Assembly: GCA_937958875.1 (NCBI GenBank)
Contig: CALGMJ010000215.1
Coordinates: forward strand, 1-38,980
Reading direction: 5' to 3'
Source of the DNA: an uncultured Verrucomicrobiales bacterium
GTDB taxonomy: Bacteria > Verrucomicrobiota > Verrucomicrobiia > Verrucomicrobiales > Akkermansiaceae
DNA length: 38,980 bases
Shown here in pieces: positions 3,001 to 14,175 of this stretch. Below the pieces are notes generated by a model that worked only from the letters and a program-made list of their open reading frames with translations, was not told where the DNA came from and did not search any database. How positions within the stretch are numbered: the first letter of the stretch is position 1; every line of letters starts with the position of its first letter. A program made the translations under genes and the position numbers.

Positions 3001-4182
3001 TCGCGGGCTATCTAAGTCGAAGGAAATTCGCTTTTCAGACACGCCAGGGTGGTGAATGGCAACGGTGTTCGAGGGGAGCACATCTCGACGGTCCCAGCCG
3101 GCGAAGTAGATTTCAAATTGAGTGGGCACGGCGTCATCAAGTTCGACGAGGCAGAAATCAGATGGTTCACTGGCTGCACGAAAGATGGCTCCACTGTTAA
3201 ACTGATTGATAGGGCCATCTCCATTTCCTCCACTAGCAGCACTGCCCGGGGTACGGCATCGACTATTTTCGAAGTTCCAGAACACAACCATTGAAGATGC
3301 ATTCTGGGGAGTGATACCGCAGTGGTCTGCTGTCAGGAAAAAGGGCCGCCGGTCATTACGCGCATTATTAATGAGAACTCCACTACAGGTATCAATGCCA
3401 AGCAGAGTGTAGGCTGCTACCGAGCTGATTTGATCGCGGTAGAGGTCGATGAGGGGGCCGAAGTTCGAATTGTCTGCTGCCGAGCAGATGACATCGATTT
3501 GGCAGGCTTGGGAGCGGGAATTACCGATTTTCTCTTTAATCGGATTGGCATCGCGGAATCCGTGATTCACTTTCGTCAAATTAAGAGCGAGTGCATTTTC
3601 AAATTCGGTCGGGATTTTAAGGTCAATGAGCAAGCGGTCTGTTCTCAGAATGGGGGTCCAGAGTTCATTGTGGTCTTCGTTATCTTGATCAGAGAACTCG
3701 AGGGGAGTCCCTTTACCGCGAGAATCGGAAATTGTTAGGACCCCGCCTGGAGGCATTTTATAGGTCTCAAAGCCAAGGTTGAGTGATACTGCGCCGCGGC
3801 TTTCAACCTCTAGCTTCCATTGAGATAGGCCATCTTCTCGGCTCCATTCACCGGCATTCTCTGGGCTGAGATTTACTTCGCGAGGAACAGCGAAACGGAA
3901 CCGTCCACTCGCCTTACTATTAATTGCCTCGGTGAGATGTCGGCTATGGTCTAGCTCGCTGAGCTGAATGATTTTTTCTCCACCTTTAGCAAGGGGGCTA
4001 TTTGACCTGTGATCTGGAGTATGGTTGAGGCGAGTCTCTACAGTTGTTTGTTCGGGAGAATGATTCGAAGCTTGCTTATCAGCAGCTTGAGTTTGGCTAT
4101 CGCTTTGCGAGCGATTTTGATTCGCTTGATGCAGAGTGAAGGCAAGAGTTAGGAGCAGGAGACCGAGGAGAAATCGTTTCAT
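40..4182 (-). CDS. Secreted lysyl-endopeptidase-like serine protease with Calx-beta and repeat modules
   Basis: A predicted exported S1-type serine protease of 1380 residues. The ATG at 4182 is preferred over an upstream one because it opens directly into a signal peptide (MKRFLLGLLLLTLAFTL). Counting from the upstream Met (13 residues earlier), the triad is visible as TADHC (His about 300), SDFCLVEL (Asp about 356) and GGSSGSPLF (Ser about 438), followed by GQLHGG, the pattern of Achromobacter-type lysyl endopeptidases. After the protease come a Calx-beta domain (about 505-620, ending ILNDD), putative Ig/He_PIG-like segments, and three copies of a module of about 110 residues, recognisable by FxWRVDSE or DWSVSSE, ISGxxxW and GWVDEI or GFIDNV. 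The end carries a DDEDGDGYNLFAEYA stretch and a beta-rich tail common in verrucomicrobial secreted proteins. It lies divergent from the sigma-factor gene. Cleavage after Lys is inferred from family resemblance only. Confidence 0.85.
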   Translation of the reverse strand: MKRFLLGLLLLTLAFTLHQANQNRSQSDSQTQAADKQASNHSPEQTTVETRLNHTPDHRSNSPLAKGGEKIIQLSELDHSRHLTEAINSKASGRFRFAVPREVNLSPENAGEWSREDGLSQWKLEVESRGAVSLNLGFETYKMPPGGVLTISDSRGKGTPLEFSDQDNEDHNELWTPILRTDRLLIDLKIPTEFENALALNLTKVNHGFRDANPIKEKIGNSRSQACQIDVICSAADNSNFGPLIDLYRDQISSVAAYTLLGIDTCSGVLINNARNDRRPFFLTADHCGITPQNASSMVVFWNFENSRCRTPGSAASGGNGDGPINQFNSGAIFRAASEPSDFCLVELDDAVPTQFEIYFAGWDRRDVLPSNTVAIHHPGVSEKRISFDLDSPRRTNLFRDPIAPNGTHLRIGNWEFGATEGGSSGSPLFSPAGLIVGQLHGGASACGNNLPDWYGRIFTSWNGGGSPQTRLRDWLDPESSGIEQLPGLSSIIPANISAENISESDDVNTTLAVRITLREEAAIPSTIRFRTESGSAIAGFDFLPVNEEVTFPAGSLEQTVNITILADDEPEEDETFTIFLSQGNGIGPGPQSRAEVTILNDDYILPEFNNLDPVATPAQDIFEYQITAANSPRSYRIENAPDGMTVDTDGLISWIPQEEGTFTVDLVAANPAGESTASLEIVVVQNGLIFALDLPINVPVNNSNPGFFTQNTIHQDGEDAAESRPIENNEEASFTITAEGPDLVEFAWRVDSEALYDFLIFSVDGQEISSISGQTNWEKKSVTIAEGSHLLKWTYRKDDTNASGSDRAWVDEITFAKNSGLPTIISPLQETVIMNEPYRYVIQSVDPDAMFSVSNLPEGLTFDGDRTISGVLNTFLNSDVDIIAQSSNSSVVSERLRLLISEQIKDDLDSENLTWTLEGPQSWRGQSLITHDLEDALQSGRIRHSESTSLKTEVTGPDEIAFWWRVDSEDSFDELSFKIDGQTQFAISGRRGWRRVHVPIPAGRHLLEWEYSKNAAISVGEDAGWVDEISLASERLPFFRADSNPLAIQNEPFIYAMEILNEFGEVTFSDLPTWLSWNPETLSLTGTPPVRRNYLITAQTENVVGVSTLPIILDVAAPDPRLAEALDNENIRFFNTPSSRWTASIAADREGGNEVGSGNVSDGRDSEMSTLVQGPGRLIFDWSVSSELGRDFLELRLNADLIERISGDLPWTTYSLDLPSGLHQVSWIFSRDANGRSGLNRGFIDNVRLEGYSNFLVNQALSQTGSLISDDEDGDGYNLFAEYAFSGDPRSPQTPTPPILTAGTNGTVTLSHPVPPSVSGIRFMRQQSSTLKETDWSSLNFASEPTIIMNSDESFEQVLEIPTDDLPKKFIRVFAEPNR

Positions 4183-4271
4183 CGTGATGAATTGGTGTAA
4201 TTTACACAGCAGTGTTATCATAATAAGCGTCGTGCGCTAAAAGAAAGGTTTGGAATTTCGCAAAGAAAAAT

Positions 4272-4286
4272 TTGGAATATTTCCAA
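4272..4286. promoter_or_regulatory. Perfect palindrome in divergent promoter region
   Basis: TTGGAA-TAT-TTCCAA is a perfect inverted repeat in the 148-base gap between the divergent protease and sigma-factor genes. A related half, TTTGGAATTT, occurs at 4249-4258, so the TTTGGAAT unit is repeated 23 bases apart. It could be an operator or part of a sigma-factor-dependent promoter (ECF -35 boxes often contain GGAA), but no matching -10 was recognised. Confidence 0.3.
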
Positions 4287-4330
4287 GTCATGTAGGCTCT
4301 AACCACCAGTTACACAAAACAGGACGGATT

Positions 4331-4876
4331 ATGGATGAATTTCAAGAACTTGTAGACGCTCATTATCAGGGGCTCTACCGCTTTGGCTTTTCGCTGGCCA
4401 AAGATCCAGATCGGGCCGCTGATCTGGTGCAGCAGACATTCTGCATCTGGGCTTCAAAAGGGCACCAGCTAAAGGACCGGAGTAAGGCCAAAACCTGGCT
4501 TTTTACCACTCTCTATCGAGAGCATCTCGGAAATGCGCGTCGAACTCAGCGCTACCCTGAGACCGAGCTCGGTGATGCGGAGCATGAGATTCCAGGGACA
4601 GAAGATGCTGCAGATCGGAAAATGGACGCTCAGCGTGCGATCGACCTCTTAGGTAAGCTGGACGAAACCTTTAGGGCTCCTCTAACGCTCTTTTACCTAC
4701 AGCAACATAGCTACAAAGAAATCGCCGATATTTTAGAGATCCCGATCGGGACCGTGATGTCTCGGATCTCACGCGGCAAAGAACAACTACGTAAAAAAAT
4801 GACCGAGGAGCCTGCAAGTGCTCCTAAGAAGATTCTCGAATTTGAACCGGAGGCAATCAGACAAAATAATGGATAA
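4331..4876 (+). CDS. ECF-type RNA polymerase sigma factor
   Basis: A 181-residue sigma-70 family factor of ECF size. Region 2 is at the N-terminus (YQGLYRFGFSLAKDPDRAAD, then LVQQTFCIWA and KTWLFTTLYR). Region 4 is near the C-terminus (LTLFYLQQHSYKEIADIL, then PIGTVMSRISRGKEQLR), a typical helix-turn-helix. The ATG at 4331 is chosen because AGGA (4321-4324) lies six bases upstream and homology begins there; the frame stays open upstream to 4250 but that extension does not look like sigma factor. It overlaps the next gene by eight bases (ATGGATAA), which points to translational coupling with a membrane-anchored partner, the usual arrangement for a sigma/anti-sigma pair. The regulon is unknown; the divergent protease is a possible target by position only. 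Confidence 0.92.
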   Translation: MDEFQELVDAHYQGLYRFGFSLAKDPDRAADLVQQTFCIWASKGHQLKDRSKAKTWLFTTLYREHLGNARRTQRYPETELGDAEHEIPGTEDAADRKMDAQRAIDLLGKLDETFRAPLTLFYLQQHSYKEIADILEIPIGTVMSRISRGKEQLRKKMTEEPASAPKKILEFEPEAIRQNNG

Positions 4877-5765
4877 GGAAAAGGCAAAATTTATTCTTCA
4901 GAGCTTTCGCCCAGATGGGGCAGACGCTGGTGATCCTGATTTCGCAGAAGCCCTAGAATTGGCTGCGGCAGATCGTGATCTCGGAAATTGGTTGGCACGT
5001 GAACGTGCTCAGGATGCCGCTTTTGCTGCTGCTTTGAATAATGTTTCAATTCCTGAGCATCTCCGAAGCGCCATTTTCGAGGTGCTTGACCCTAAGGAAG
5101 TCGAATCTGTCGTATTTGATGCAGACTTTATTGGCGCTCTCGCCGCAGTCCAGCCACCGGACGGTCTGCGCGATCAGATCCTTAATGCAATGGAAATTGA
5201 GCAAAAGGTCGTCCGTCCTGCGAAAGGCTGGGGCTGGCGTAAGCTCTCCTCAATCAGCGCCGCCGCCGCTGCGGTGATGATCGGATTATTCGTGACTTTC
5301 GGCACTGGTGGGAACGCAATTGCTAGCGCTGCTGTGAGCGATGTCCATGAATCTGCGATCGCGATGCTGAGTGCTCCTCTTTTTTCTCTTGATCTGAAAG
5401 AGAAGCGTCAGGCTGAAATCTTTGATTGGCTTCAGAGTAAGGAGCTTCCTTCACCAGAGCAGATCCCCAGCGGTCTGCGTAATCTCGACGGGGTTGGTTG
5501 TAAATATCTCACAGTCGGCGACGAAGATAAAGATGCTAAGGGGTCATTGATTTGTTTCCGCAAGAATGAGGACACCATTGTTCACCTAGTCATGATGAAG
5601 AAGGAAGATCTTGGTGAAGAACTTCAGGACATTCAGCAGGCTGAAGATCTATGTCAGGCTTATGTTGAGAACGATGGCTGGTCTGTGACCCAGTGGTCAG
5701 ACAGTGAGCATGCGTTCTTCCTCTTCGCGAAGATGAATCCTGTTGAAATGGCCGCGCTTTTCTAG
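4869..5765 (+). CDS. Putative membrane-anchored anti-sigma factor
   Basis: A 298-residue protein with one likely membrane segment at about 126-145 (SSISAAAAAVMIGLFVTF). The cytoplasmic N-terminal part holds two copies of a short motif: AALNNVSIPEHLRSAI and GALAAVQPPDGLRDQI, about 35 residues apart. The segment after the membrane helix has a C-terminal domain with FLFAKMNP near the end. It starts inside the last codons of the sigma gene, and the ATG at 4869 is the first Met consistent with that coupling; a GGAGG at 4849-4853 is 15 bases upstream, rather far. Position and topology support an anti-sigma role, but there is no recognisable zinc-finger (HxxxCxxC) anti-sigma motif, so the function is inferred. 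A strong terminator follows. Confidence 0.7.
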   Translation: MDKEKAKFILQSFRPDGADAGDPDFAEALELAAADRDLGNWLARERAQDAAFAAALNNVSIPEHLRSAIFEVLDPKEVESVVFDADFIGALAAVQPPDGLRDQILNAMEIEQKVVRPAKGWGWRKLSSISAAAAAVMIGLFVTFGTGGNAIASAAVSDVHESAIAMLSAPLFSLDLKEKRQAEIFDWLQSKELPSPEQIPSGLRNLDGVGCKYLTVGDEDKDAKGSLICFRKNEDTIVHLVMMKKEDLGEELQDIQQAEDLCQAYVENDGWSVTQWSDSEHAFFLFAKMNPVEMAALF

Positions 5766-5796: not shown

Positions 5797-5834
5797 ATGA
5801 GGCGCTCTGTAAAAAGAGCGCCTCATTTTGTTTA
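5797..5834 (+). terminator. Strong Rho-independent terminator
   Basis: A perfect 12-bp stem (ATGAGGCGCTCT with AGAGCGCCTCAT) and a six-base loop, followed by TTTTGTTT. It ends the sigma/anti-sigma transcript. Confidence 0.9.
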
Positions 5835-5924: not shown

Positions 5925-6236
5925 ATGTCCTCTGAAATTGCAACTCTTCAACTTTCTGATTTTGAGCCTCTGGTTGATTCCTCATTTACTCTTTCTCTGG
6001 AAGGGGTCGAGGGGACGGCTGAGGCTGTTTTAAGCGAGGCTAAAGTTTCACCTGCTGGTAAGTATGCACAAGAGGCTCGTGATCCTTTTGTGTTGCTCTT
6101 CCGTCTGCCGCAGGAGCTAAAGCTTGAGCAAAGTCTCTACCAGATGGAGAACGATAAATTAGGAAAGATCGCGTTATTTTTAGTGCCCGTAAAAAATGAC
6201 GAGACTGGGCATTATCTGGAGGCTATTTTTAGTTAA
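5925..6236 (+). CDS. DUF6916-like small protein
   Basis: A 103-residue soluble protein without signal peptide. The pattern LSDFEPLVDSSFTLSLEG near the start, DPFVLLFRLP in the middle, then YQMENDKLGKIALFLVP and a short aromatic end matches the DUF6916 family as I remember it: a small all-beta protein often found beside phage-tail-collar (MdpB-like) genes. Start: the ATG at 5925 is taken; the frame is open upstream through GTG/TTG codons at 5907-5912. The gene lies 11 bases before the sulfotransferase and is probably co-transcribed with it and the tandem-GNAT gene. No molecular function is known for the family. Confidence 0.65.
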   Translation: MSSEIATLQLSDFEPLVDSSFTLSLEGVEGTAEAVLSEAKVSPAGKYAQEARDPFVLLFRLPQELKLEQSLYQMENDKLGKIALFLVPVKNDETGHYLEAIFS

Positions 6237-6247
6237 ATCCAGTTGCG

Positions 6248-6820
6248 ATGATGCTTTCACGTGAGCATCGTCTTCTCTTTCTGCATACGAGTCGCACGGG
6301 AGGGACGACGATACGAGAGCTACTGCGTATGGCCCTGCCAGATACGGAAGAGCGTGTGGGACAGCATCGATCTGCCCTAGAGGCACGCGATGAGTTAGGG
6401 GTGTTTTTTGACGAGAGTTTTCGTTTTGCCTTTGTGAGAAATCCTTGGGGTCGGCTTTGGTCATGGTTTGCGATGAGTCGGAACCTGATACAAAATGAAG
6501 AGAGGGATTTTGATGCTTTTTTAAGAGATTGGGTGCCGGATGAGGGCGAGTTGATTCTGCCGAATCAATGTGAAGCGCTTTCTGATCAAGATGGGCGGCT
6601 TTTGGTCCACGAGGTAGGGCGGTTTGAGCGCTATGAGGATGAAGTGAGGCGGATTTTTAAGGTCGCAGGTGTTTCTCTGGGAGAGGAACTCCAGCAGTTA
6701 AATGCGGGCGGTTATGTTGGAGGCTATGCTCAATATTACTCTGTGGAAGGTCGCGAGCGGGTCGCAGCAGCTTACCGTGCGGATCGAGAATTTTTTGATT
6801 ATGAATTTGAGGAGGTATAA
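6248..6820 (+). CDS. Sulfotransferase family protein
   Basis: A 190-residue cytosolic sulfotransferase-like protein. The 5'-phosphosulfate loop is seen as LLFLHTSRTGGTTIREL (about 9-25), and the 3'-phosphate-binding segment as FRFAFVRNPWGRLWSWF (about 58-74, Arg64). This order and spacing fit the Sulfotransfer_2 (heparan-sulfate sulfotransferase-like) group, which transfers sulfate from PAPS to a hydroxyl or amine of a sugar or protein. Two adjacent ATGs (6248, 6251) are possible starts; neither has a clear Shine-Dalgarno. It sits between the DUF6916 gene (11 bases upstream) and the tandem-GNAT gene, whose start overlaps its last 20 bases. The acceptor is unknown; surface polysaccharide or a protein of the collar locus are both possible. 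Confidence 0.75.
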   Translation: MMLSREHRLLFLHTSRTGGTTIRELLRMALPDTEERVGQHRSALEARDELGVFFDESFRFAFVRNPWGRLWSWFAMSRNLIQNEERDFDAFLRDWVPDEGELILPNQCEALSDQDGRLLVHEVGRFERYEDEVRRIFKVAGVSLGEELQQLNAGGYVGGYAQYYSVEGRERVAAAYRADREFFDYEFEEV

Positions 6821-7748
6821 TGAGTCTGATCGCTCTTTTTTTTATGAGCTTTTTGTGGCAACACATCAGCGCATTTTTGCGCAGATGCCTTTGGCCCCAG
6901 CTCAGCTGGAACCGCTGATGAAGCAGCAATTTGAGTCTCAGTGGCAGCGGCTAATGAATGGATTTTCTGAAGAAGATTACTGTGTCATTGAAATCGATGG
7001 GGAAGCGGTGGGACAATGGTTTACGGGAGAAAGGGATGGGCAGGTGGAGATTGTTTACGCAGCGCTGATGCCAGCCTGGCAGGGCCAAGGTCTGGTGGCG
7101 CAGTTGACGCGTGATCTTGCTAAAAAGACTCTGGCGGAAGGGCGCCGGTTGCGGGCTTTTGTGGAGTGCTCAAACCCGGCGCGATACATATGGTATCATT
7201 TGGGATTTGAGGTCATAGAGGAGAATGGAGCACACGAGCGGATCGAATATTTTGATCCTGAGCGAAAGTACGATGATTTTCGGATAAGAAAGGTTCAGCT
7301 AGACGATGGTCCATTTCTTTTCGAGTTATTCTGTCAGATGCGGGCTGATATTTTTGGAGCAATGGAGATTTCTCCTGATCAGTTAGAGTCTCTTCAGAAG
7401 CAGCAATTTTCGTTATGGAATAGTGGGAATGCACGTAGCTATCCACAGGCAAAATCATTTTTGGTGATTCGAAATGGACGGCGGGTCGGAGCCTGGAGTT
7501 ATAGTGATGGAGAGGATGGGATCTATATTCTGAATGCAGGGCTGGTTCCTGAAGTTCGAGGGGTGGGCATTTCAGCGAAACTACACCGAGCTTTATTTCG
7601 ATATGCTGACGGTGAGGGGAAGGTCGTTTCCTCACACGTGGGAATAGGGAATCCAGCAAAGGAAATTTTAGAACACCTAGGTCTCCGTGTCGTAGGGGAG
7701 GCTGGCGCTTATCATGAGCTGATGCGGCTCCCTTCCACTGAGAATTGA
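6801..7748 (+). CDS. Tandem GNAT-domain acetyltransferase
   Basis: A 315-residue protein made of two GNAT folds in a row. Domain 1 (about 1-150) begins MNLRRYNESDRSFFYELF and has an acetyl-CoA loop WQGQGLVAQL; domain 2 (about 157-315) begins FRIRKVQLDDGPFLFELF and has VRGVGISAKL. Both contain the same N-terminal signature (QLEPLMKQQF and QLESLQKQQF), which recurs in the single GNAT protein at 7773-8255. The ATG at 6801 is chosen because domain 2 has the same opening; the frame is open further upstream inside the sulfotransferase gene. The loops are less canonical than in the single-domain relative, so one half may be catalytically weak. The strongest Shine-Dalgarno nearby (GAGGAGG, 6809-6815) lies inside the gene. 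Substrate unknown. Confidence 0.8.
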   Translation: MNLRRYNESDRSFFYELFVATHQRIFAQMPLAPAQLEPLMKQQFESQWQRLMNGFSEEDYCVIEIDGEAVGQWFTGERDGQVEIVYAALMPAWQGQGLVAQLTRDLAKKTLAEGRRLRAFVECSNPARYIWYHLGFEVIEENGAHERIEYFDPERKYDDFRIRKVQLDDGPFLFELFCQMRADIFGAMEISPDQLESLQKQQFSLWNSGNARSYPQAKSFLVIRNGRRVGAWSYSDGEDGIYILNAGLVPEVRGVGISAKLHRALFRYADGEGKVVSSHVGIGNPAKEILEHLGLRVVGEAGAYHELMRLPSTEN

Positions 7749-7772
7749 AGCCTGTGAGAAAGAGGCGAATCC

Positions 7773-8255
7773 TTAAACGACGAGGCGAAAATTTTTCCAA
7801 CTCATCAGGACCGAGAAGTCTGTCTCTAGACCTGGAGTGAAGTCAAAACGGTGGTAGAAATTGAGAGTGCGAGGTTTGAATTTATGGACGTAAACGGAGA
7901 GTGTTTTTCGCGATTCACGGGCCTCCATCATAAGTGTTTCCAAGAGGCGAGTGCCGATGCCCTGACCGCAAAACTGGGGGGAGATAGTGAGGTCTAGAAT
8001 ACGGATTTCATCAGCTCGGCGGTCACAGTACAGGCGGCCACAGGCTTCGCCATCGATGAAGATTAAATCATAGTTAGCCTCAGGGAAATCACTCTCATAA
8101 GAAGATTTTTGTGCTTCAAACTGTTGTTTTAAAAACTGGTTCCATTGATGAGCGGGCCAACCCGTTTGGGCCGCTTCCAGCGAACGAGAGTGGGCATAGA
8201 GCTGGAAGAGGAAGTCTTCGTCTGAAGGGGTTTTGTGACGTAAAGTGATATCCAT
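7773..8255 (-). CDS. GNAT N-acetyltransferase of the tail-collar-associated subfamily
   Basis: A 160-residue single-domain acetyltransferase. Seen in order: NQFLKQQFEAQ (about 45-55), FPEANYDLIFIDGEACGRLY, RRADEIRILDLTISP, the acetyl-CoA loop FCGQGIGTRLL (Q/R-x-x-G-x-G/A), and a C-terminal YHRFDF that commonly packs on CoA in the fold. The combination of the QF-AQ motif with DGE-GRLY-RR-DEIRI-D is characteristic, from memory, of GNAT genes found beside MdpB-like collar genes in Proteobacteria and Verrucomicrobia. It converges with the tandem-GNAT gene (24 bases between stop codons), and its start faces the Tat-signal gene at 8345. The substrate is not known; a collar protein is a natural candidate because of the recurring linkage. 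Confidence 0.85.
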   Translation of the reverse strand: MDITLRHKTPSDEDFLFQLYAHSRSLEAAQTGWPAHQWNQFLKQQFEAQKSSYESDFPEANYDLIFIDGEACGRLYCDRRADEIRILDLTISPQFCGQGIGTRLLETLMMEARESRKTLSVYVHKFKPRTLNFYHRFDFTPGLETDFSVLMSWKNFRLVV

Positions 8256-8290
8256 TTGAATTTGTTAATCGTCGTGGAGGTGGGGCGAAA

Positions 8291-8336
8291 TATAACAGTA
8301 ATTTTAAGTCGTCAAAAGGGGAGAAGTAATGTTATA
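8291..8336. promoter_or_regulatory. Inverted repeat in divergent promoter region
   Basis: TATAACAGTA (8291-8300) and TAATGTTATA (8327-8336) are inverted copies with 9 of 10 pairs, separated by 26 bases, between the divergent GNAT (starts 8255) and Tat-signal (starts 8345) genes. It may be a two-site operator controlling both; no regulator gene is adjacent. Confidence 0.3.
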
Positions 8337-8344
8337 TCCGGCGC

Positions 8345-8695
8345 ATGACTCCCTCACAAAATACCCGCCGTTCTTTTTTAGCAACTTTAGGTCTAACGAC
8401 AGGATATGCCGCTGCCGAAATGACATCCGCTTCATTACCTGGTGTTCAGTTAACAAGCCACACTTGCCCTGAGCGTGATGTTCTCTCAGTGGTTTCCAAG
8501 TACGGGGCTTGTCTGAAAACTACCCGCGAGGAAGGAAAGGTTGAGTATCTTATCCAGATGTCTGATGCAGAGAAATTTGTGAAAGTGTTCAACCCAATGA
8601 AGGCTCTGCCATTTGATGAAATTCAAGTGAGTGAAAATAACACGCTCGCTTTCACTCATCAGGGAGTCAGATTTACCCTGAATCACGCCAGCTAA
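8345..8695 (+). CDS. Small protein with twin-arginine signal, unknown function
   Basis: A 116-residue protein not recognised by family. It opens with a plausible Tat signal: NTRRSFLATLG followed by a short hydrophobic/Ala stretch (TTGYAAAEM), so it is probably exported folded. The mature part is about 85 residues, mixed alpha/beta, with two Cys (TCPERD and YGACLK). Start: the ATG at 8345 places the RR pair at residues 8-9, but there is no Shine-Dalgarno at the right distance; GGGGAG at 8318-8323 is too far. It is transcribed away from the GNAT gene and toward the collar operon, ending in a perfect hairpin. Its position inside the collar locus suggests a linked role, which is inference only. 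Confidence 0.6.
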   Translation: MTPSQNTRRSFLATLGLTTGYAAAEMTSASLPGVQLTSHTCPERDVLSVVSKYGACLKTTREEGKVEYLIQMSDAEKFVKVFNPMKALPFDEIQVSENNTLAFTHQGVRFTLNHAS

Positions 8696-8710
8696 GTTTG
8701 CTGGCGTGAT
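8682..8710. terminator. Perfect hairpin between convergent genes
   Basis: An 11-bp perfect stem (ATCACGCCAGC / GCTGGCGTGAT) with a seven-base loop that contains the stop codon of the Tat-signal gene. It lies 22 bases from the stop of the last collar gene on the other strand. There is no T-run on either side, so it is an atypical terminator or an mRNA-end stabiliser. Confidence 0.55.
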
Positions 8711-8732
8711 GTTCTAGAAGGCTGAGGTATTT

Positions 8733-9299
8733 TTAGCTTCTAGAAGGGAATATTCCAGTCAGGGCGATGATGAAATTCACCGCCTGAAAGGGGGCCATAT
8801 TATTAACAGGCGAAGAGTTTCCAGCGATATTGATATTGAGCGATAAGTTGAGCGCACCCGCTCGCACGGTTGTGTCTGCCGTGTCTGAATAGAGATTGGG
8901 CGTGCCGGCAAAGTCTGTGGAGTCTGCCGGGAAATTATTGATCGGGCTGGTGGAAGTGGCTGGGCCACCCCCTCTAGGCGCAATGGAGAGGTCTGCGCTG
9001 ACTGTATGTGAATGGGAAGGGAGATTTCTCAATGAAAGAGTGTTCGTTTCTGTTCCTGTTCTCGTACCTATACGACGAGAAGTGAGCCCAGGGCCATTTC
9101 CTTGATGGATGGGAGCGCGACCACGTAAGTCTGGTAACGCAAATGTAGTCCGTCCATCACCACCGTAAATGGTGCCGATAATGGAGAAGAGCGCGGAATT
9201 TTGTGCGATAGCGATGAGCTGGCCATCACAAAAGGCGTAACCTCGGGGGGCGAAGTTTCCACCAAACATGATAATTTGTCCTAAGAATGGGTTTGCCAT
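8733..9299 (-). CDS. Phage-tail-collar (MdpB-like) protein, third in operon
   Basis: A 188-residue protein of the phage tail collar domain family (PF07484-type; cellular relatives are called microcystin-dependent protein MdpB). Seen: PFLGQIIMFGGNFAPRGYAFCDGQ at the start region, IYGGDGRTTFALPDLRGRAPIH (about 45-66), then LRNLPSHSHTV and a variable Gly/Ser/Thr-rich middle, and a conserved end IIALTGIFPSRS. No signal peptide or membrane helix. It is the last of three paralogues on this strand, 31 bases after the second. The variable middle (about 110-150) is probably the exposed part, by analogy with tail fibres. No phage structural gene is nearby, so a cellular role is likely; what it binds is unknown. 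Confidence 0.9.
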   Translation of the reverse strand: MANPFLGQIIMFGGNFAPRGYAFCDGQLIAIAQNSALFSIIGTIYGGDGRTTFALPDLRGRAPIHQGNGPGLTSRRIGTRTGTETNTLSLRNLPSHSHTVSADLSIAPRGGGPATSTSPINNFPADSTDFAGTPNLYSDTADTTVRAGALNLSLNINIAGNSSPVNNMAPFQAVNFIIALTGIFPSRS

Positions 9300-9330
9300 T
9301 GTTCTGTGAGTTTGAAGTGAGTGAGGGGGG

Positions 9331-9897
9331 TTAGCTTCTTGAGGGGAAGAGGCCTTGGATGGCGATAATGAAAGTGATGGTCAGTGATGGCTGCATATTC
9401 GTGTAGGGGAGGCTTGTGCCCGTGGGAAAGGTTTGTGGGGCAATGCTTTCGCTGAATCCGGCCATAGTTCCTGTTGGGGTGCTAGTATAGAGATTCCCAT
9501 CTGGGGAGGGGCCCATGGAGTGATCGGAGGAAGGCGTTGATTCGTCTTCATTATCATTACCACAGGGAATGACGAGTGAGCTGTTTCCGGTACTCACCGT
9601 GTGGCTGTGAGCGGGTAGGTTTGCCAAAGTAAGAGTCGTGTCTTCATTACCAGAGCGCTGACCAAGAGCGAAATCTTGAGAGGTGCCAATGGCGCGTCCT
9701 GGGTGAATCGGGGCCCGTCCTCTTAGGTCTGGTAACCCAAAAGTGGTACGGCCATCTCCTCCATAGCTCGTCCCTAGGAGGCTAAAGAGGGCTTGATTCT
9801 GGTTAATGGGTAATATTTGGCCGTCACAAAGGGCCCAGCCGCGTGGGGCGAAGTTGCCGCCAAACATAATGATCTCGGCTAGAAATGGTTCAGACAT
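9331..9897 (-). CDS. Phage-tail-collar (MdpB-like) protein, second in operon
   Basis: A 188-residue collar-domain paralogue. It keeps EIIMFGGNFAPRGWALCDGQ, SYGGDGRTTFGLPDLRGRAP, LANLPAHSHTV and the end IIAIQGLFPSRS. Its middle differs from the other two: it is acidic (CGNDNEDESTP) and then Gly/Thr/Pro-rich. It lies 45 bases after the first paralogue and 31 bases before the third, on the same strand, consistent with one transcript. Similarity between the three is concentrated in the first 80 and last 40 residues, as expected after old duplication with divergence of a surface-exposed insert. Confidence 0.9.
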   Translation of the reverse strand: MSEPFLAEIIMFGGNFAPRGWALCDGQILPINQNQALFSLLGTSYGGDGRTTFGLPDLRGRAPIHPGRAIGTSQDFALGQRSGNEDTTLTLANLPAHSHTVSTGNSSLVIPCGNDNEDESTPSSDHSMGPSPDGNLYTSTPTGTMAGFSESIAPQTFPTGTSLPYTNMQPSLTITFIIAIQGLFPSRS

Positions 9898-9942
9898 GGT
9901 TGTTTTTTTGGGGTAGAAGTTTTCAGTGAATCGAGCTCGAAT

Positions 9943-10515
9943 CTAACTGCGAGAAGGGAAAGTTCCGAATAGGCAGATGATGAAATTGACCGCTAGCGAA
10001 GGTTGGCGATTCGGAATGGCTTGAGGGGCTGGGCTACCAGCGGATGATGTGTTAACATTGGATAGAGTTACTGGGGTTAGCCCGAAACTTCCCGAAATTT
10101 CTTCCGAGTAGAGATCCTCTTCGCCAGATGAGGCGGGATATCTTCCGATGGGGCTGGACTGAGTGCCTGCTGAGGTCGAAGCCTGTTGAGCTGGTGGAAT
10201 GTTTTGAGGTTGGGAAACGATGTGTGAGTGAGCCGCCATCGTGTTGGTGTTAAGGGTGACCGATTCACTGCCTGAGGATTGGCCAAGTGTTCTAGTAGTG
10301 AGCCCGGGGCCTCTACCAGGGTGAACCGGGAAGCGGCCCTGTAGATTTGGGAGGCCCATGGTGGTGCGGCCATCTCCGCCATAGGTAGTACCTAGAATGG
10401 AAAATAATGCGGTATTTTGTGCGATGGGGAGAAGCTGGCCATTACAGAAGGCCCAAGAGCGCGGAGCGAAGTTGCTGCCAAACATTACAATTTCTCCAAT
10501 AAAGGGATTCGACAT
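9943..10515 (-). CDS. Phage-tail-collar (MdpB-like) protein, first in operon
   Basis: A 190-residue collar-domain protein and the first gene of the triplet. Seen: EIVMFGSNFAPRSWAFCNGQ, TYGGDGRTTMGLPNLQGRFP (with Asn/Gln where the others have Asp/Arg), AHSHIVSQPQ and the end IICLFGTFPSRS. The middle is rich in Ser, Ala, Gln and Thr. The ATG at 10515 follows the 295-base divergent promoter region shared with the large secreted protein at 10811. The three genes probably form one operon that ends near 8733. Confidence 0.9.
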   Translation of the reverse strand: MSNPFIGEIVMFGSNFAPRSWAFCNGQLLPIAQNTALFSILGTTYGGDGRTTMGLPNLQGRFPVHPGRGPGLTTRTLGQSSGSESVTLNTNTMAAHSHIVSQPQNIPPAQQASTSAGTQSSPIGRYPASSGEEDLYSEEISGSFGLTPVTLSNVNTSSAGSPAPQAIPNRQPSLAVNFIICLFGTFPSRS

Positions 10516-10810
10516 AATAATTTAGATTAAGGGGATTTTAGAGCGATCTTATTAGAGCAATTGGTTAAGCAGATCCTGGGAATGGGTCGCCTACAAATAG
10601 GATTCTCTTCGTGAATACACCTTTTGGAATAGTGCGTTTCAAAAAAATACACGATATGAAATAAAATCGATTTTTTTAGAACTCGATCGAAATAACGGGG
10701 TAATCACTTAACTGAGGGGCAATTTCACGAGTTGTCGTTCTCTTCTTCGAATTGATTCTATATCTAAAATAATTACGCAATCTGTGTACGAATGATATCC
10801 TGATAATCTA
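10516..10810. other. Divergent intergenic region, AT-rich
   Basis: 295 bases between the collar operon (minus) and the large secreted protein (plus). It must hold both promoters. I see AT-rich tracts (for example around 10640-10675) but no convincing -35/-10 pair, riboswitch or operator, and no small ORF with coding character. Confidence 0.5.
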
Positions 10811-13570
10811 ATGAAATTTCCCCAATTCCAATTTCCCTCTCAATCTCTTAGGTCTTTCGCTTTTTTTAGCTGTTTCATTCATCCCTTGGCAGCAGATGTC
10901 ATTATCACGGAGGATTTCGAGACTGATGGCCAAGGAGTTCGCTATCTTGGTTCGAATTTCACCGATAATAGTGACGTTTTTGATCGGCATAATTTTGGCG
11001 CTTCGAATCCTTACGTATCGCATGCCGATGCAATTGAAACTGAGGATTCGGCTGTAAATCATACGGAATGGGCTTACGTAGCAGAGGATATTTCAGATAC
11101 AGCAAACCCTTTATTTCCAGATGTGTATGCATCGACCGCGAATGCAGAGGCTTTTCTGCGGCTTGCAGATGTTGATGTGAGCGGGTTTAGCAATCTGCGA
11201 GTGACGGTGAGTTTTGCTGTATCTCGAGCGACTGGCACCTTCTGGGAAGATGATGAGTTCATCGCAGTCGAGTCTGCCTTTGATGCTGATAGTGGGGGGA
11301 TTTCAGACCCGCTGACGACGGCATTCTCAACGTCTAGAACGAGCCAATATACACGAATTGGAGCTTTTTTAGGAGCTGATTTTTCATTTTCAGGCTTACA
11401 GCAGGATGTGAATTTGGATGGCGTAGTGGATGGGCCTGCCCTCAATAGCAAGTTGACCCGCTACACGTTCCCGGTGATAGGCAGTGGTTCTTCTTTATCA
11501 GTACAGATTCGCCTGAGTCCTACAGATGGCTCCGAAGAAATCGTCTTTGATGAGATTATCATCGAAGGTGACCCAGTCATGACAAATCCGCCTGCTCTGG
11601 CAGGGATCGAGAGTTCTGCGATTGAGTTTACCGAAGGTGACTCGGCCACTCAAGTGACGGGTAGTATCACAGTGGCAGATAGTGATAGTCTCACTCTTTC
11701 GGCAGCACAGGTTTCGATTTCCTCGGGCTTTAGTTCAGGTGAGGATGTCTTGACTGTAACGCCAGCAGTTGGCGGGATTACGGCGAGTTATGCTCCTGCT
11801 ACCGGGGTTCTATCTCTGAGCGGAAATGCTTCGCTTGCGGATTATCAGACAACGTTGCGCTCAGTGACGTATCAAAATACAAATACAACGAATCCGTCGA
11901 CAGAACCGAGAGAGATTAGTTTTTTGGTGACTGATGAAGCTGCCATCCAGAGCAATATCGTAGAACGCGATGTCAATCTGACGGCAACGATCGGTTCCGG
12001 CACGATTCCCTTTACGGAGACCTTCGAGACAGATGGGGAAGGAGTTCGCTACCTATCCAATACGCATGATAATGGTGGGGACGCTCATTTTGAGAGACAT
12101 GATTTCGCAAATTCAGCGTCTCAGCATCCAGGCCATTTTGAAGCGGTCAGTGGGGTGGAAGGCGCTTTTGCGTGGGCTTCAGAATTCTCTGACGCGAATC
12201 CGAACCTAGGAAATCCTCTCGGGACTGGGGCGGGAACCCCCAATGTGATTCGATTTTATGATTTGGATGCGACTGATCTCGCAGATCTGCAAGTAGCAAT
12301 CAGCCTTGGTTCATCGATTCGCACAATGCCAGCGACGGTCTGGGAAACTACGAATCAGATCGAGATTCAGGCGGCATGGGATACTGATCGTGGAAGTGCG
12401 GTTGCTCCAGCGAATCCGACTTTACTTTCAGGTTCTTATACCACGGTCGGGCGTTTTATTGGCACTGGAGTTGCGGGCCAAAACCCGGTCGCAGATGCCG
12501 ATCTTGACGGCGTTGCCGATATGGGCGGGGCTGAGCTGAGTGAGGCGATGGGAGATTTTACCTTCGATATTTCGGGTGTGTCTGGACTAGCAGAGACTGG
12601 CTCGGTTCTGTCCGTTCAGATTAAACTGACCCATGGTGGGGGAGAGGAGATTGTCTTCGATAATATCAGAGTCACTGGAATAGTTCCGGACACGGAGGCT
12701 CCAACCGCAGCGCTGAGTAATCCGTCAGGCGGAGCTTTTCTCACGAGTGCTGCTGCAAATGCGCTCGGATTTATCGATGTGACTTTTTCAGACACTGGCG
12801 GCAGTGATTTAGATTTAAATTCGATCATTGATGCGGCGAGCGAGATCTCCCTCTCTGGTACTGGGGTAGGCACTGCGAGTGTTTCTGGGCCTGGAGTTCT
12901 CCAGAGTGGAACAACTTACCGCTATCCCATCACCGGCACATTTTCGCCGGGAACGGTAAACGTGGATTACATCGCAGGTTCCTTCGCGGACAATGACGCC
13001 AATTCTAATATTGCATCTTCAGAGAGCTTCACGGTTACGAATTTGAGTCCGACTGCTGGGCCAGATACGATCACGAGAAACCCTGGCGGCAGCGTTAAGG
13101 TGTCTCTTGCTTTTCTCCTGGGTAACGATAGTGACCCAGAAGGAACGAACCTAACGATCTCCTCTGTATCGGCAACAGGAGGAAATGGCGCCACCGTTGT
13201 GATTGTGGGCGATTTCGTCTTCTACGCGCCGAATGGACATACCGGAGATGATACCTTCGAATATACCCTCGTAGATGAAGATAGTGGCACTGCGACCGGA
13301 GTCGTCTCCGTAGATGCAGTTCAGAGTTCGGGAGTTTCTTCTAACTTAGTTGATGTGGAGACTGGAGTGCCTTTAAGCGGAGGAGGAACGGGAGATATCG
13401 CGCGTTTCGTGGGAATTCCTGGACGGAGTTACACGGTGCAGACTTCTGAGACCATGGCTCTAGGTTCTTGGAGTTCTGGGGATGTGATTGAGGCCGATGC
13501 TCAAGGATGGATTACTTTTGAGATCGCTTCACCTCCAGCGACGCTCTTTTTCCGAGCACTCATTGAGTGA
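10811..13570 (+). CDS. Large secreted beta-rich repeat protein (cadherin/Ig-like)
   Basis: A 919-residue predicted exported protein, signal peptide roughly residues 1-29 (SFAFFSCFIHPLAAD). Two copies of a module of about 230 residues begin DFETDGQGVRYLGSNF (about 36) and TFETDGEGVRYLSNTH (about 403); each has an RHxF motif, a Trp in ATxWExxxxI and an EEIVFDxIxxxG end. Between them is a beta domain with EGDSATQVTGSITVAD. After residue 627 comes an Ig-like segment (DTEAPTAALSNP) and then a cadherin-like segment (about 744-835; GNDSDPEG, GDDTFEYTLVDEDSGTATG). The tail (YTVQTSETMALGSW to FFRAL) resembles the ends of other secreted proteins here. No catalytic motif is seen. It is read divergently from the collar operon and could be a surface adhesin or scaffold; that link is positional. 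Confidence 0.8.
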   Translation: MKFPQFQFPSQSLRSFAFFSCFIHPLAADVIITEDFETDGQGVRYLGSNFTDNSDVFDRHNFGASNPYVSHADAIETEDSAVNHTEWAYVAEDISDTANPLFPDVYASTANAEAFLRLADVDVSGFSNLRVTVSFAVSRATGTFWEDDEFIAVESAFDADSGGISDPLTTAFSTSRTSQYTRIGAFLGADFSFSGLQQDVNLDGVVDGPALNSKLTRYTFPVIGSGSSLSVQIRLSPTDGSEEIVFDEIIIEGDPVMTNPPALAGIESSAIEFTEGDSATQVTGSITVADSDSLTLSAAQVSISSGFSSGEDVLTVTPAVGGITASYAPATGVLSLSGNASLADYQTTLRSVTYQNTNTTNPSTEPREISFLVTDEAAIQSNIVERDVNLTATIGSGTIPFTETFETDGEGVRYLSNTHDNGGDAHFERHDFANSASQHPGHFEAVSGVEGAFAWASEFSDANPNLGNPLGTGAGTPNVIRFYDLDATDLADLQVAISLGSSIRTMPATVWETTNQIEIQAAWDTDRGSAVAPANPTLLSGSYTTVGRFIGTGVAGQNPVADADLDGVADMGGAELSEAMGDFTFDISGVSGLAETGSVLSVQIKLTHGGGEEIVFDNIRVTGIVPDTEAPTAALSNPSGGAFLTSAAANALGFIDVTFSDTGGSDLDLNSIIDAASEISLSGTGVGTASVSGPGVLQSGTTYRYPITGTFSPGTVNVDYIAGSFADNDANSNIASSESFTVTNLSPTAGPDTITRNPGGSVKVSLAFLLGNDSDPEGTNLTISSVSATGGNGATVVIVGDFVFYAPNGHTGDDTFEYTLVDEDSGTATGVVSVDAVQSSGVSSNLVDVETGVPLSGGGTGDIARFVGIPGRSYTVQTSETMALGSWSSGDVIEADAQGWITFEIASPPATLFFRALIE

Positions 13571-13606: not shown

Positions 13607-14175
13607 AAATCCCCCCCTAGTTTAGCGATTCCTGATGGGGATCCCAGCGGTTTGGTGGATGTCCAAAATATCACCTCAACCATTTTGCAACCCACTTCCA
13701 TCAGAGTGGGCTGGGGATTACTGGTGAATTCACCGGTGATCTTTATGTGTCTCTTCAGCATGATTCTGGCTTTAGCGTGCTGTTGAATCGGGTGGGGCGG
13801 ACTTCGTCAAATGCTCTTGGCTATGCTGATACTGGGATCGATGTAACTTTTGATGATGTCGCTTCAGAGAACATTCACCTTTATCAAGAGGTGCCAGCGA
13901 CTGGCACTCCATTGGTCGGCATCTGGCAGCCTGATGGAAGAAATGTAGACCCCTCAGTGGTCACAGATGCCTCGTCAGTGACTGCTGGGCTTTCCTCACT
14001 CTTAGGAAGTCCTTCCTCTGGGGACTGGACGCTTTTTGTGAGTGATGTGGTCTCGGGATCGACTCATACGCTCGATACTTGGAGTCTTTCGATCACGGGT
14101 GATACCGTGCCGGAGCCTTCCAGCGTGATGTTGAGTTTATTGGCGTTGGGTGTGTTTTTGGGTCGCCGCCGTTGA
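13607..14175 (+). pseudogene. Truncated, frameshifted P-domain PEP-CTERM protein
   Basis: Two frames encode consecutive parts of one protein. From about 13625 one frame reads AIPDGDPSGLVDVQNITS and continues to IRVG near 13710. The next frame continues from about 13711 with LGITGEFTGDLYVSLQHD and runs to the stop at 14175. Joined, they form a proprotein-convertase-type P-domain (LLNRVG, SGDWTLFVSD, LDTWSLSITG) followed by a PEP-CTERM tail (VPEPSS, hydrophobic stretch, GRRR). One missing base around 13708-13711 explains the break. The 5' end is also absent: in-frame stop TAA at 13604-13606, no Met and no signal peptide. A run of seven C (13611-13617) lies at the start. A GTG at 13747 could start only a partial domain. 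An assembly error could explain the shift but not the missing N-terminus. Confidence 0.75.

Follow-up and report, generated by a model that had tools for sequence, protein, structure and literature searches.

Why should an uncultured bacterium of the Akkermansiaceae (Verrucomicrobiota) carry three consecutive genes for collar-domain proteins (PF07484), a family at home in phage tails, and what could such proteins do there? The question is raised by a window of 38,980 nucleotides, which is the whole stretch of DNA analysed here (assembly GCA_937958875.1, contig CALGMJ010000215.1, positions 1 to 38,980). In it the three collar genes lie within a cassette of about 5.9-13.6 kb, together with a DUF6916 gene, two genes of one GNAT acetyltransferase subfamily, a sulfotransferase gene, a gene for a small protein with a twin-arginine-like signal and a gene for a large protein of secreted type (Table 1). 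Genes of this kind, called "tail fiber protein" or "microcystin-dependent protein", are easily mistaken for phage debris. We think, with the chances evenly balanced for and against, that the cassette encodes a surface-displayed heterotrimeric tail tip whose chains are N-terminally acetylated by the GNAT, and which goes with the large secreted protein. All the parts belong to known families; none of the papers listed in our searches of the open-licence literature describes the assembled cassette.

Do these genes belong together at all? Two kinds of sample bear on this. Family searches, made with Pfam models and not by likeness to the cassette, covered 58 relatives (27 of the genus), 387 genomes of the phylum (G000 and G032 are common to both sets) and, from a different order, to which the Stappia locus L079 belongs, 199 genomes including two seeds. 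A likeness sample consisted of the best 80 of at least 587 collar relatives in bacterial genome contigs, the query being 31 aligned collars; 64 of these 80 loci are well flanked, with at least 2.5 kb on both sides. Open reading frames (ORFs) were called mechanically, and collar starts were set by alignment to the collar model. Because the 80 loci were picked by likeness to the window collar, and a triplet has three chances of being found, they are not random for copy number; and since our own profiles for GNAT and DUF6916 were trained on collar neighbours and refined by iteration over these loci, presence calls there are tuned, whereas the family-search counts use Pfam models.

Three distinct consecutive collar genes are found in the window and in 43 of the 64 well-flanked loci, the others having two (6) or one (15) and none having more. 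A member of the GNAT subfamily accompanies 39/43 triplet loci versus 3/21 others (Fisher 2e-9, kinship ignored), and DUF6916 accompanies 35/43 versus 2/21 (Fisher 4e-8, again ignoring kinship). The family searches agree: DUF6916 occurs in 6 of the 58 relatives, each time with a collar within about 2.6 kb (collars occur in 12 genomes), and over cut-off in 8 of the 387 phylum genomes, each time with a collar within about 3 kb (collars in 48), while a ninth match, below cut-off, has collars on another contig. An earlier reading of the window made from its letters, hereafter the original prediction, had named independent occurrence of the components in related genomes as the result that would speak against it. 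Within the genus it came through intact, as 5 of the 27 genomes have DUF6916, always with a collar no more than about 2.6 kb away, and 22 lack both. In the more distant order it came through with two dents: DUF6916 is present in 13 genomes (collars in 32) and has a collar within 5 kb in 11, one of these being a weak match at 4.6 kb, but one of the remaining two has its collar 46 kb off and the other has no collar match.

The original prediction also held that collars, DUF6916 and this GNAT subfamily recur together in unrelated bacteria, and the locus surveys bear this out, commonly with a large secreted protein in attendance. Triplet, GNAT and DUF6916 stand together in Acidobacteriota, Chloroflexota, Bacteroidota, Bacillota, Verrucomicrobiota, Pseudomonadota, Actinomycetota and Deinococcota, that is in eight phyla, or seven without L151, whose DUF6916 (the sole actinomycete one) is seen by our own profile and not by Pfam. 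Plasmid records of Ruegeria, Phyllobacterium, Deinococcus, Paenibacillus, Pontibrevibacter and Comamonas hold three "tail fiber" genes, a GNAT and a large secreted-type protein in varying order; a Spirosoma plasmid record holds three "tail fiber" genes, a large secreted-type protein and a formyltransferase gene, with no GNAT. DUF6916 is present in all of these plasmid loci but those of Paenibacillus and Spirosoma, and an unannotated Pseudoalteromonas record contains collars, GNAT and DUF6916. No further core family appeared among the top 25 Pfam families of each neighbour list. The association of collars, GNAT and DUF6916 is real.

Is the cassette, then, what is left of a prophage, a tailocin or an injection system? 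The collars do match PF07484 (all three exceed the Pfam cut-off of 24, at 98.5-105.2 bits) and PHROG tail families, but we consider this origin very improbable. DUF6916 is found in 0 of 50,697 phage records (tblastn, E 0.01), the gene set is the same across phyla, PHROG shows no tail family among the cassette proteins other than the collars, and of the 53 PHROG families matched by the 144 scanned neighbours of triplets, the 25 listed, many of them nameless, include no named structural phage family. The assembly (253 contigs, 77% complete) contains only these three collars and only this DUF6916, and neither tail-sheath PF04984 nor Baseplate_J PF04865 has a match in it, these being the tail families looked for there; collars in a complete tail module elsewhere in the genome, which would have told against the non-phage system originally predicted, were not found in what is assembled at the sensitivity used. 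Nor is the cassette a known anti-phage defence system by PADLOC, which gave 0 families for 9 cassette proteins at E 0.01. In the literature, no collar term was found in PMC5489592, PMC2953401 and PMC4545795, and PMC4727817 concerns a tailocin locus and gave no lead for the cassette.

Why three? In the 199-genome sample the cluster sizes are 14 threes, 1 two and 23 singles, and among the 40 plasmid records listed (33 more lie beyond them) 32 have three collar places and 8 have one. Three is not an absolute number, given one four-collar cluster (G289) and the two-collar loci mentioned above (6/64). The new observation is that the members of most triplets belong to different paralogue classes: when the collar tree is divided into three parts, 46 of 62 triplet loci place one chain in each, and the order of the classes is shared by 37 of these loci, whereas shuffling the classes (300 times, the partition being re-optimised each time) gave a mean of 16 loci and a maximum of 23. 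Genome G329 has nine collars in a row (L164) which read A-C-B three times over by class hidden Markov models (HMMs) trained on other loci. Moreover, five ORFs of 1307-2262 amino acids (aa) (L156-L160) contain three or more collar stretches in a single chain, with a secretion signal at the start as judged by eye.

Three paralogue classes suggest heterotrimers, for which a precedent has been shown biochemically in a virophage. In the available text of PMC12724248, three consecutive PF07484 proteins of virophage DSLV2 co-purify 1:1:1 as a heterotrimer that binds Synechococcus cells; the genes are of similar size, fall into positional groups and are kept as a triplet in 45 virophages, as in our loci, but they are virus-encoded beside a minor capsid gene with a proposed attachment role, and that text describes no GNAT, DUF6916 or large bacterial surface protein with them. 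The three collars could instead make three separate homotrimers of different specificity, as the T4 gp37 tip, which is homotrimeric according to the same text, and the existence of single-collar loci with a GNAT might lead one to think. We hold this to be unlikely, for clusters of exactly three, the three classes, the duplication by threes in L164, the three-in-one chains and the virophage heterotrimer all point to chains that would belong in one and the same trimer. Two further observations may be recorded here. Chains with three tandem collar domains, of about 309 to 2262 aa, are natural three-in-one triplets (L156-L160; G443:C46:15484-16188; G541:C6:352315-353259), and G453, the genome of L078 (Sulfidibacter corallicola), has 17 collar matches arranged as five triplets and two singles.

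What would hold such a trimer together? The motif HxH occurs in every triplet-locus chain of the three tree parts (77/77, 63/63 and 46/46; all 186) and in 204 of 205 chains overall, a count that leaves out 24 collars missed by the pattern, and both His are invariant in alignments of 31, 79 and 82 collars. In gp12 and gp37, HxH pairs from three chains bind metal, and a metal site at the collar HxH may be expected by analogy. The best PDB sequence match of the collar is 8kec, the long tail fibre of cyanophage A-1(L) (7.1e-11), in which the HxH aligns with LPSHQHG, although this is a phage structural protein. Homology to a tip of T4 gp12 type is found at the sequence level (1ocy, 1.5e-5), and Foldseek of a low-confidence collar model returned 5iv5 (2.5e-4) and 1ocy (6.7e-4). 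The gp12 receptor-binding domain shares the collar-domain sequence relation and, to go by a title in the reference list of PMC4949626, has a trimeric metal-binding fold; it differs in being a fibre tip within a phage tail, whereas the bacterial collars are short free-standing chains in triplets. Of the groups of paralogues shown in the available part of PMC3174227, the collars of Candidatus Solibacter usitatus have the top positive-selection statistic, which would fit a binding surface under diversification.

What is the GNAT for? Here a second new result concerns the second residue of the collars. By locus, residue 2 is Ser, Ala or Thr in 66/66 with a GNAT versus 4/30 without. By chain, collars in GNAT loci start with Met followed by Ser/Ala/Thr in 166 of 180 cases (3 Asp/Glu, 11 other), while those in GNAT-less loci have Met-Asp/Glu (24/49), a Sec-like signal (8/49), Ser/Ala/Thr (10/49) or something else (7/49). 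The Tat (twin-arginine translocation) and Sec tests are simple patterns of our own and not trained predictors. Sec-like signals are found in 0/177 collars of GNAT loci, in a set without the GNAT of L155 and some collars (overlap filter), the other N-terminal counts coming from the corrected set; in 7 of the 8 that occur elsewhere the signal ends, by eye, within about a residue of collar residue 2, L116 having a spacer. The rule holds within Bacteroidota (Ser/Ala/Thr in 13/15 collars with GNAT versus 2/26 without) and Alphaproteobacteria (31/36 versus 0/3), where phylum groups, for these counts as for those of the GNAT subfamily, were assigned from record titles. It also holds in one- or two-collar loci (12/12 versus 2/31), so that residue 2 tracks the GNAT and not the triplet. 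Of 14 non-overlapping pairs in the collar tree, 8 go in the predicted direction, none in the opposite one, and 6 are uninformative. The family search also gave short loci from the same phylum, in which Ser/Ala/Thr follows Met in 18/21 chains with a GNAT within 1.5 kb; a nineteenth chain (L053) starts Met-Ser and was flagged as a signal by the pattern, and the remaining two, like one more chain, come from the nine-gene locus of G329 and have Asp/Glu. Of 14 such chains with no GNAT that near, Ser/Ala is present in 8, of which three (L042) and three more (L050) lie in loci with a GNAT further out.

Initiator Met is removed before small residues, and an exposed Ser or Ala is acetylated by GNATs of RimI/RimJ/RimL type; RimI-type chemistry on Ser/Ala N-termini is what we propose for the cassette GNATs. 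RimI (TIGR01575) is the best NCBIfam match of both window GNATs, at 29.7 and 30.9 bits, but its cut-off of 86.4 lies far above these scores and the cassette genes are collar-linked, so the claim is one of working alike. In view of the N-terminal rule, acetylation of the N-terminus is the most likely job of this GNAT, which would make it a dedicated N-terminal acetyltransferase of the collars. The original prediction spoke of acetylation or sulfation of the collars; acetylation is kept in this form, but sulfation as a core step is dropped since sulfotransferases lie near few cassettes (Sulfotransfer_3 in 3 and Sulfotransfer_1 in 2 of the 144 scanned neighbours, groups that can overlap). The sulfotransferase is an accessory, occasional neighbour.

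It could be objected that linkage and heterotrimer are right and that the GNAT modifies something else (the large protein, its sugar or DUF6916), the Ser/Ala starts then reflecting Met removal or selection on expression in collars that are cytoplasmic. We regard this as possible though improbable. Substrates are hard to tell from sequence, the RimI match is far below cut-off, and genes for sulfotransferases, formyltransferases and Asp/Asn hydroxylases near some collar loci are what one would see if a larger protein were decorated (around one- or two-collar loci, the Asp/Asn beta-hydroxylase family PF05118 makes up 5/100 neighbours and proteins sorted by the type IX secretion system, T9SS, 6/100). 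On the other hand, residue 2 follows the GNAT even in one- or two-collar loci and within Bacteroidota, and the collars are poor in lysine (0.8% versus 2.6% in their neighbours), which leaves the N-terminus as a main amine. Separately, formyltransferase genes occur beside Met-Asp/Glu collars without GNAT in L072, L122, L154 and other, mostly Bacteroidota, loci, and some may be housekeeping genes.

How could chains with such N-termini reach the surface? DUF6916 exists in a further form, new here, with a Tat signal, found by a strict pattern in 16 of 62 triplet loci, 13 times beside a signal-less copy, as compared with 56/3434 small control ORFs, although the stretch searched was longer for DUF6916 ORFs extended upstream than for the controls. 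The DUF6916 domain is over the Pfam cut-off in 8 of 10 Tat-type proteins tested (L088 barely), L107 and L151 being missed. The AlphaFold2 model of DUF6916 is mostly beta, with a mean predicted local distance difference test score (pLDDT) of 89.8; nothing in PDB or BFVD matches its fold at E 0.001, and weak hits resembling a phage neck protein were not used. The simplest reading would be hitchhiking, the folded trimer passing through the Tat pathway together with a Tat-borne partner.

In the window the corresponding role might fall to the small protein encoded at 8345-8695, which the original prediction listed as a Tat-signal protein. The twin-arginine motif is there by reading (the strict pattern did not pass it), but in the loci searched the protein has a single clear relative, encoded next to the cassette of the same-genus genome G021 (L028; E 1.7e-9), and it is Tat-signal copies of DUF6916 that are frequent elsewhere. 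It belongs to no Pfam, NCBIfam, PADLOC or PHROG family; profile comparisons made it neither a significant homologue of the small proteins of G010, G020 and G026 nor a hidden DUF6916.

The large protein of the window was originally described as a giant repeat protein. It is indeed large, of secreted type and divergent from the collars, but at 919 aa and with one Big_9/cadherin-like stretch it is neither giant nor strongly repetitive. It is homologous to ORFs of 2143 aa (L121) and 1554 aa (L072) that also lie beside collars (E 1.2e-136 and 4.2e-38). Among five large adjacent proteins that were scanned, one has SLH domains (Paenibacillus, L119) and one a T9SS sorting domain (Dyadobacter, L136), the other domains being Ig-like, cadherin, Calx-beta and InlB-B-repeat. 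As a separate observation, large proteins (at least 500 aa) encoded in the same direction no more than 1.5 kb upstream of collars end in a short Cys-Pro tail in 13/28 cases, versus 41/1005 background ORFs of at least 250 aa (L070, L079, L083, L084, L090, L096, L098, L100, L103, L107, L118, L138, L139); a docking or attachment tail is possible. The large protein of the window has no such tail.

Might the collars act inside the cell instead, as decoys or lectin-like sensors, with the large secreted protein a merely co-regulated neighbour? The lack of Sec-like signals in GNAT loci would agree with this, as would the fact that RhiA, whose gene lies beside that of the collar protein RhiB, was used as a cytoplasmic marker in the available text of PMC2275737. 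We nevertheless find the idea distinctly unlikely: related collars have Sec-like signals (8 collars in GNAT-less loci) or belong to large chains with a secretion signal, DUF6916 has a Tat-signal form, there is no PADLOC match, and a collar protein was recorded in the exoproteome of R. pomeroyi in co-culture with Synechococcus (PMC4949626, in the part available). COG4675 proteins are also reported in a soil metaproteome in what is accessible of PMC5579227. RhiB of Rhizobium leguminosarum is likewise a PF07484/COG4675 protein that is not of phage and is encoded in a bacterial operon, for which a part in the interaction with plants has been proposed, although a single collar gene is found there, with RhiA, RhiC and RhiD between quorum-sensing genes, and no GNAT or DUF6916 is described in the accessible parts of PMC13133039 and PMC6969944; the latter states that rhi genes are kept in nearly all symbiotic clusters of its study.

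To return to a heterotrimer displayed at the surface, the steps we envisage are as follows. Three different collar chains would join round a metal site to which each contributes one HxH, and the GNAT would cap the Ser or Ala exposed after removal of the initiator Met. DUF6916 would serve as an assembly or export partner, and its Tat-signal form, or another small Tat protein, could take the trimer, folded and signal-less, through the membrane by hitchhiking. The trimer would then be a receptor-binding or adhesive tip, acting at the cell surface with the large secreted protein encoded next to it. In its fullest version, about eight phyla would keep a domesticated heterotrimeric tail tip on their surface, with its own acetyltransferase, which would read the Ser/Ala N-termini of the three chains, and with DUF6916 as a carrier that leaves through Tat along with the folded trimer; in some Bacteroidota, Met-Asp/Glu starts (three such loci having a formyltransferase gene close by) or export through Sec would take the place of the GNAT. 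This we offer tentatively, as possible rather than probable.

Several observations weigh against these proposals and should be stated together. As to the classes, the tree partition leaves the nine collars of L164 in one part, support for its two defining clades is moderate (0.56 and 0.91), and 16 of the 62 triplets lack one chain per class, including that of the window, which reads B-B-B by the class HMMs (with close scores) and A-C-A by the tree. Its chain 1 groups with single collars of Bacteroidota (L080, L095) and its chain 3 with the single collar of the Akkermansiaceae locus L121, the two sharing a clade of mostly single or double collars, while chain 2 goes with the third chain of L085, near third-position chains, with little deeper support; the window triplet is an exception to the class rule and non-canonical. 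The AlphaFold2 collar monomer is poor (pLDDT 68, predicted template-modelling score 0.44), with only part of the N-terminal half usable. The N-terminal rule has its exceptions: four GNAT-less loci with Ser/Ala/Thr (L083, L111 and, both truncated at a contig end, L089 and L115), Ser without GNAT in L037 and L048 (looked for within 1.5 kb only), and Asp/Glu in all three chains at second position in the G329 locus, which has nine collars and a GNAT. The large partner is not specific to triplets, as 26/32 well-flanked triplet loci have an ORF of 1000 aa or more no further than 8 kb away, versus 11/17 loci with one or two collars. Finally, the signal-less collars carry no export signal of their own, the 16 loci with Tat-signal DUF6916 are a minority to which just 5 with another small Tat-like ORF within 4 kb can be added, and the use of RhiA as a cytoplasmic marker counts here too.

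What would follow is nevertheless worth stating. Many of the best 80 of at least 587 collar relatives are members of a conserved system of several genes, not of phage, whose list of parts can be tested. If the N-terminal rule means what it suggests, bacteria would have a dedicated pathway of protein N-terminal acetylation with a predicted substrate, DUF6916 would gain its first functional context, and the role of collar proteins of RhiB/MdpB type would become directly testable.

The gene positions of the original prediction proved right on a Pfam scan of the window proteins and are collected in Table 1.

Table 1. Features of the collar cassette in the window and its possible boundaries
Feature	Position	Strand	Evidence and remarks
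12-bp hairpin	5797..5826	.	terminator-like scan, 12 pairs, 7 G-C; consensus match only; possible boundary between sigma/anti-sigma-like genes and cassette
DUF6916 protein, signal-less form, 103 aa	5925..6236	+	PF21880 80.2 bits, cut-off 27
Sulfotransferase (accessory)	6248..6820	+	Sulfotransfer_2 PF03567 25.6 bits, cut-off 22, weak but over
Tandem double-domain GNAT, cassette subfamily	6801..7748	+	subfamily domains 3.3e-30, 1.8e-26; PF00583 9.6e-12; ATG at 6801
Single-domain GNAT, cassette subfamily, proposed collar N-terminal acetyltransferase	7773..8255	-	PF13508 3.2e-9; subfamily HMM 8.6e-53 (trained on this GNAT and its neighbours)
Small protein, twin-arginine-like signal (NTRRSFLATLG, by reading)	8345..8695	+	familyless
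Collar protein 3, third in transcription order, N-terminus Met-Ala-Asn-Pro-Phe	8733..9299	-	PF07484 100.4 bits
Collar protein 2, N-terminus Met-Ser-Glu-Pro-Phe, HxH at residues 97-99	9331..9897	-	PF07484 105.2 bits
Collar protein 1, first in transcription order, N-terminus Met-Ser-Asn-Pro-Phe	9943..10515	-	PF07484 98.5 bits
Divergent intergenic region, collar operon / secreted protein	10516..10810	.	sequence read; 295 bp
Secreted-type 919-aa protein, proposed surface partner of collar tip	10811..13570	+	Pfam Big_9 / Cadherin_5 / Cadherin_4
15-bp hairpin after secreted protein gene	13712..13745	+	terminator-like scan; consensus match only; possible boundary

The sulfotransferase also matches phrog_3347 (galactose-3-O-sulfotransferase, 1.1e-8). 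The ATG of the first GNAT gene lies ahead of the sulfotransferase stop (6818-6820) with an overlap of 20 nucleotides, which fits the coupling originally suggested. The two GNAT genes announced by that prediction are present, but the first turns out to encode two fused GNAT domains, which brings the total in the window to three, next to the three collars. This tandem form is the only one among 68 GNAT ORFs of the subfamily examined, and such a one-off may or may not be meaningful. The divergent region contains a promoter-like site (10638-10667), in a scan that as a whole is not above chance (10 sites found; shuffled mean 8.0, standard deviation 3.3); terminator-like sites in the region number 13 against a shuffled mean of 8.8.

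Among the scanned neighbours of the cassette, those for an extracytoplasmic function (ECF) sigma factor, enzymes of anthranilate-synthase type and GATase, an SprT-like protein and an R2K ATP-grasp protein are ordinary chromosomal genes. The ECF sigma factor gene (4250-4876, plus strand) is directly upstream of the cassette, with the hairpin between, and is overlapped by an ORF without Pfam family (4818-5765, plus strand) that is anti-sigma-like by reading; the Deinococcus cassette (L070) has a sigma-70/zf-HC2 pair about 2 kb away. Beyond the sigma factor, a second large surface-type protein of 1393 aa with Calx-beta and He_PIG domains is encoded at 40-4221 (minus strand), and just past the terminal hairpin an ORF of 142 aa (13747-14175, plus strand) has a P_proprotein match and a PEP-CTERM tail, and is maybe a fragment of a longer gene.

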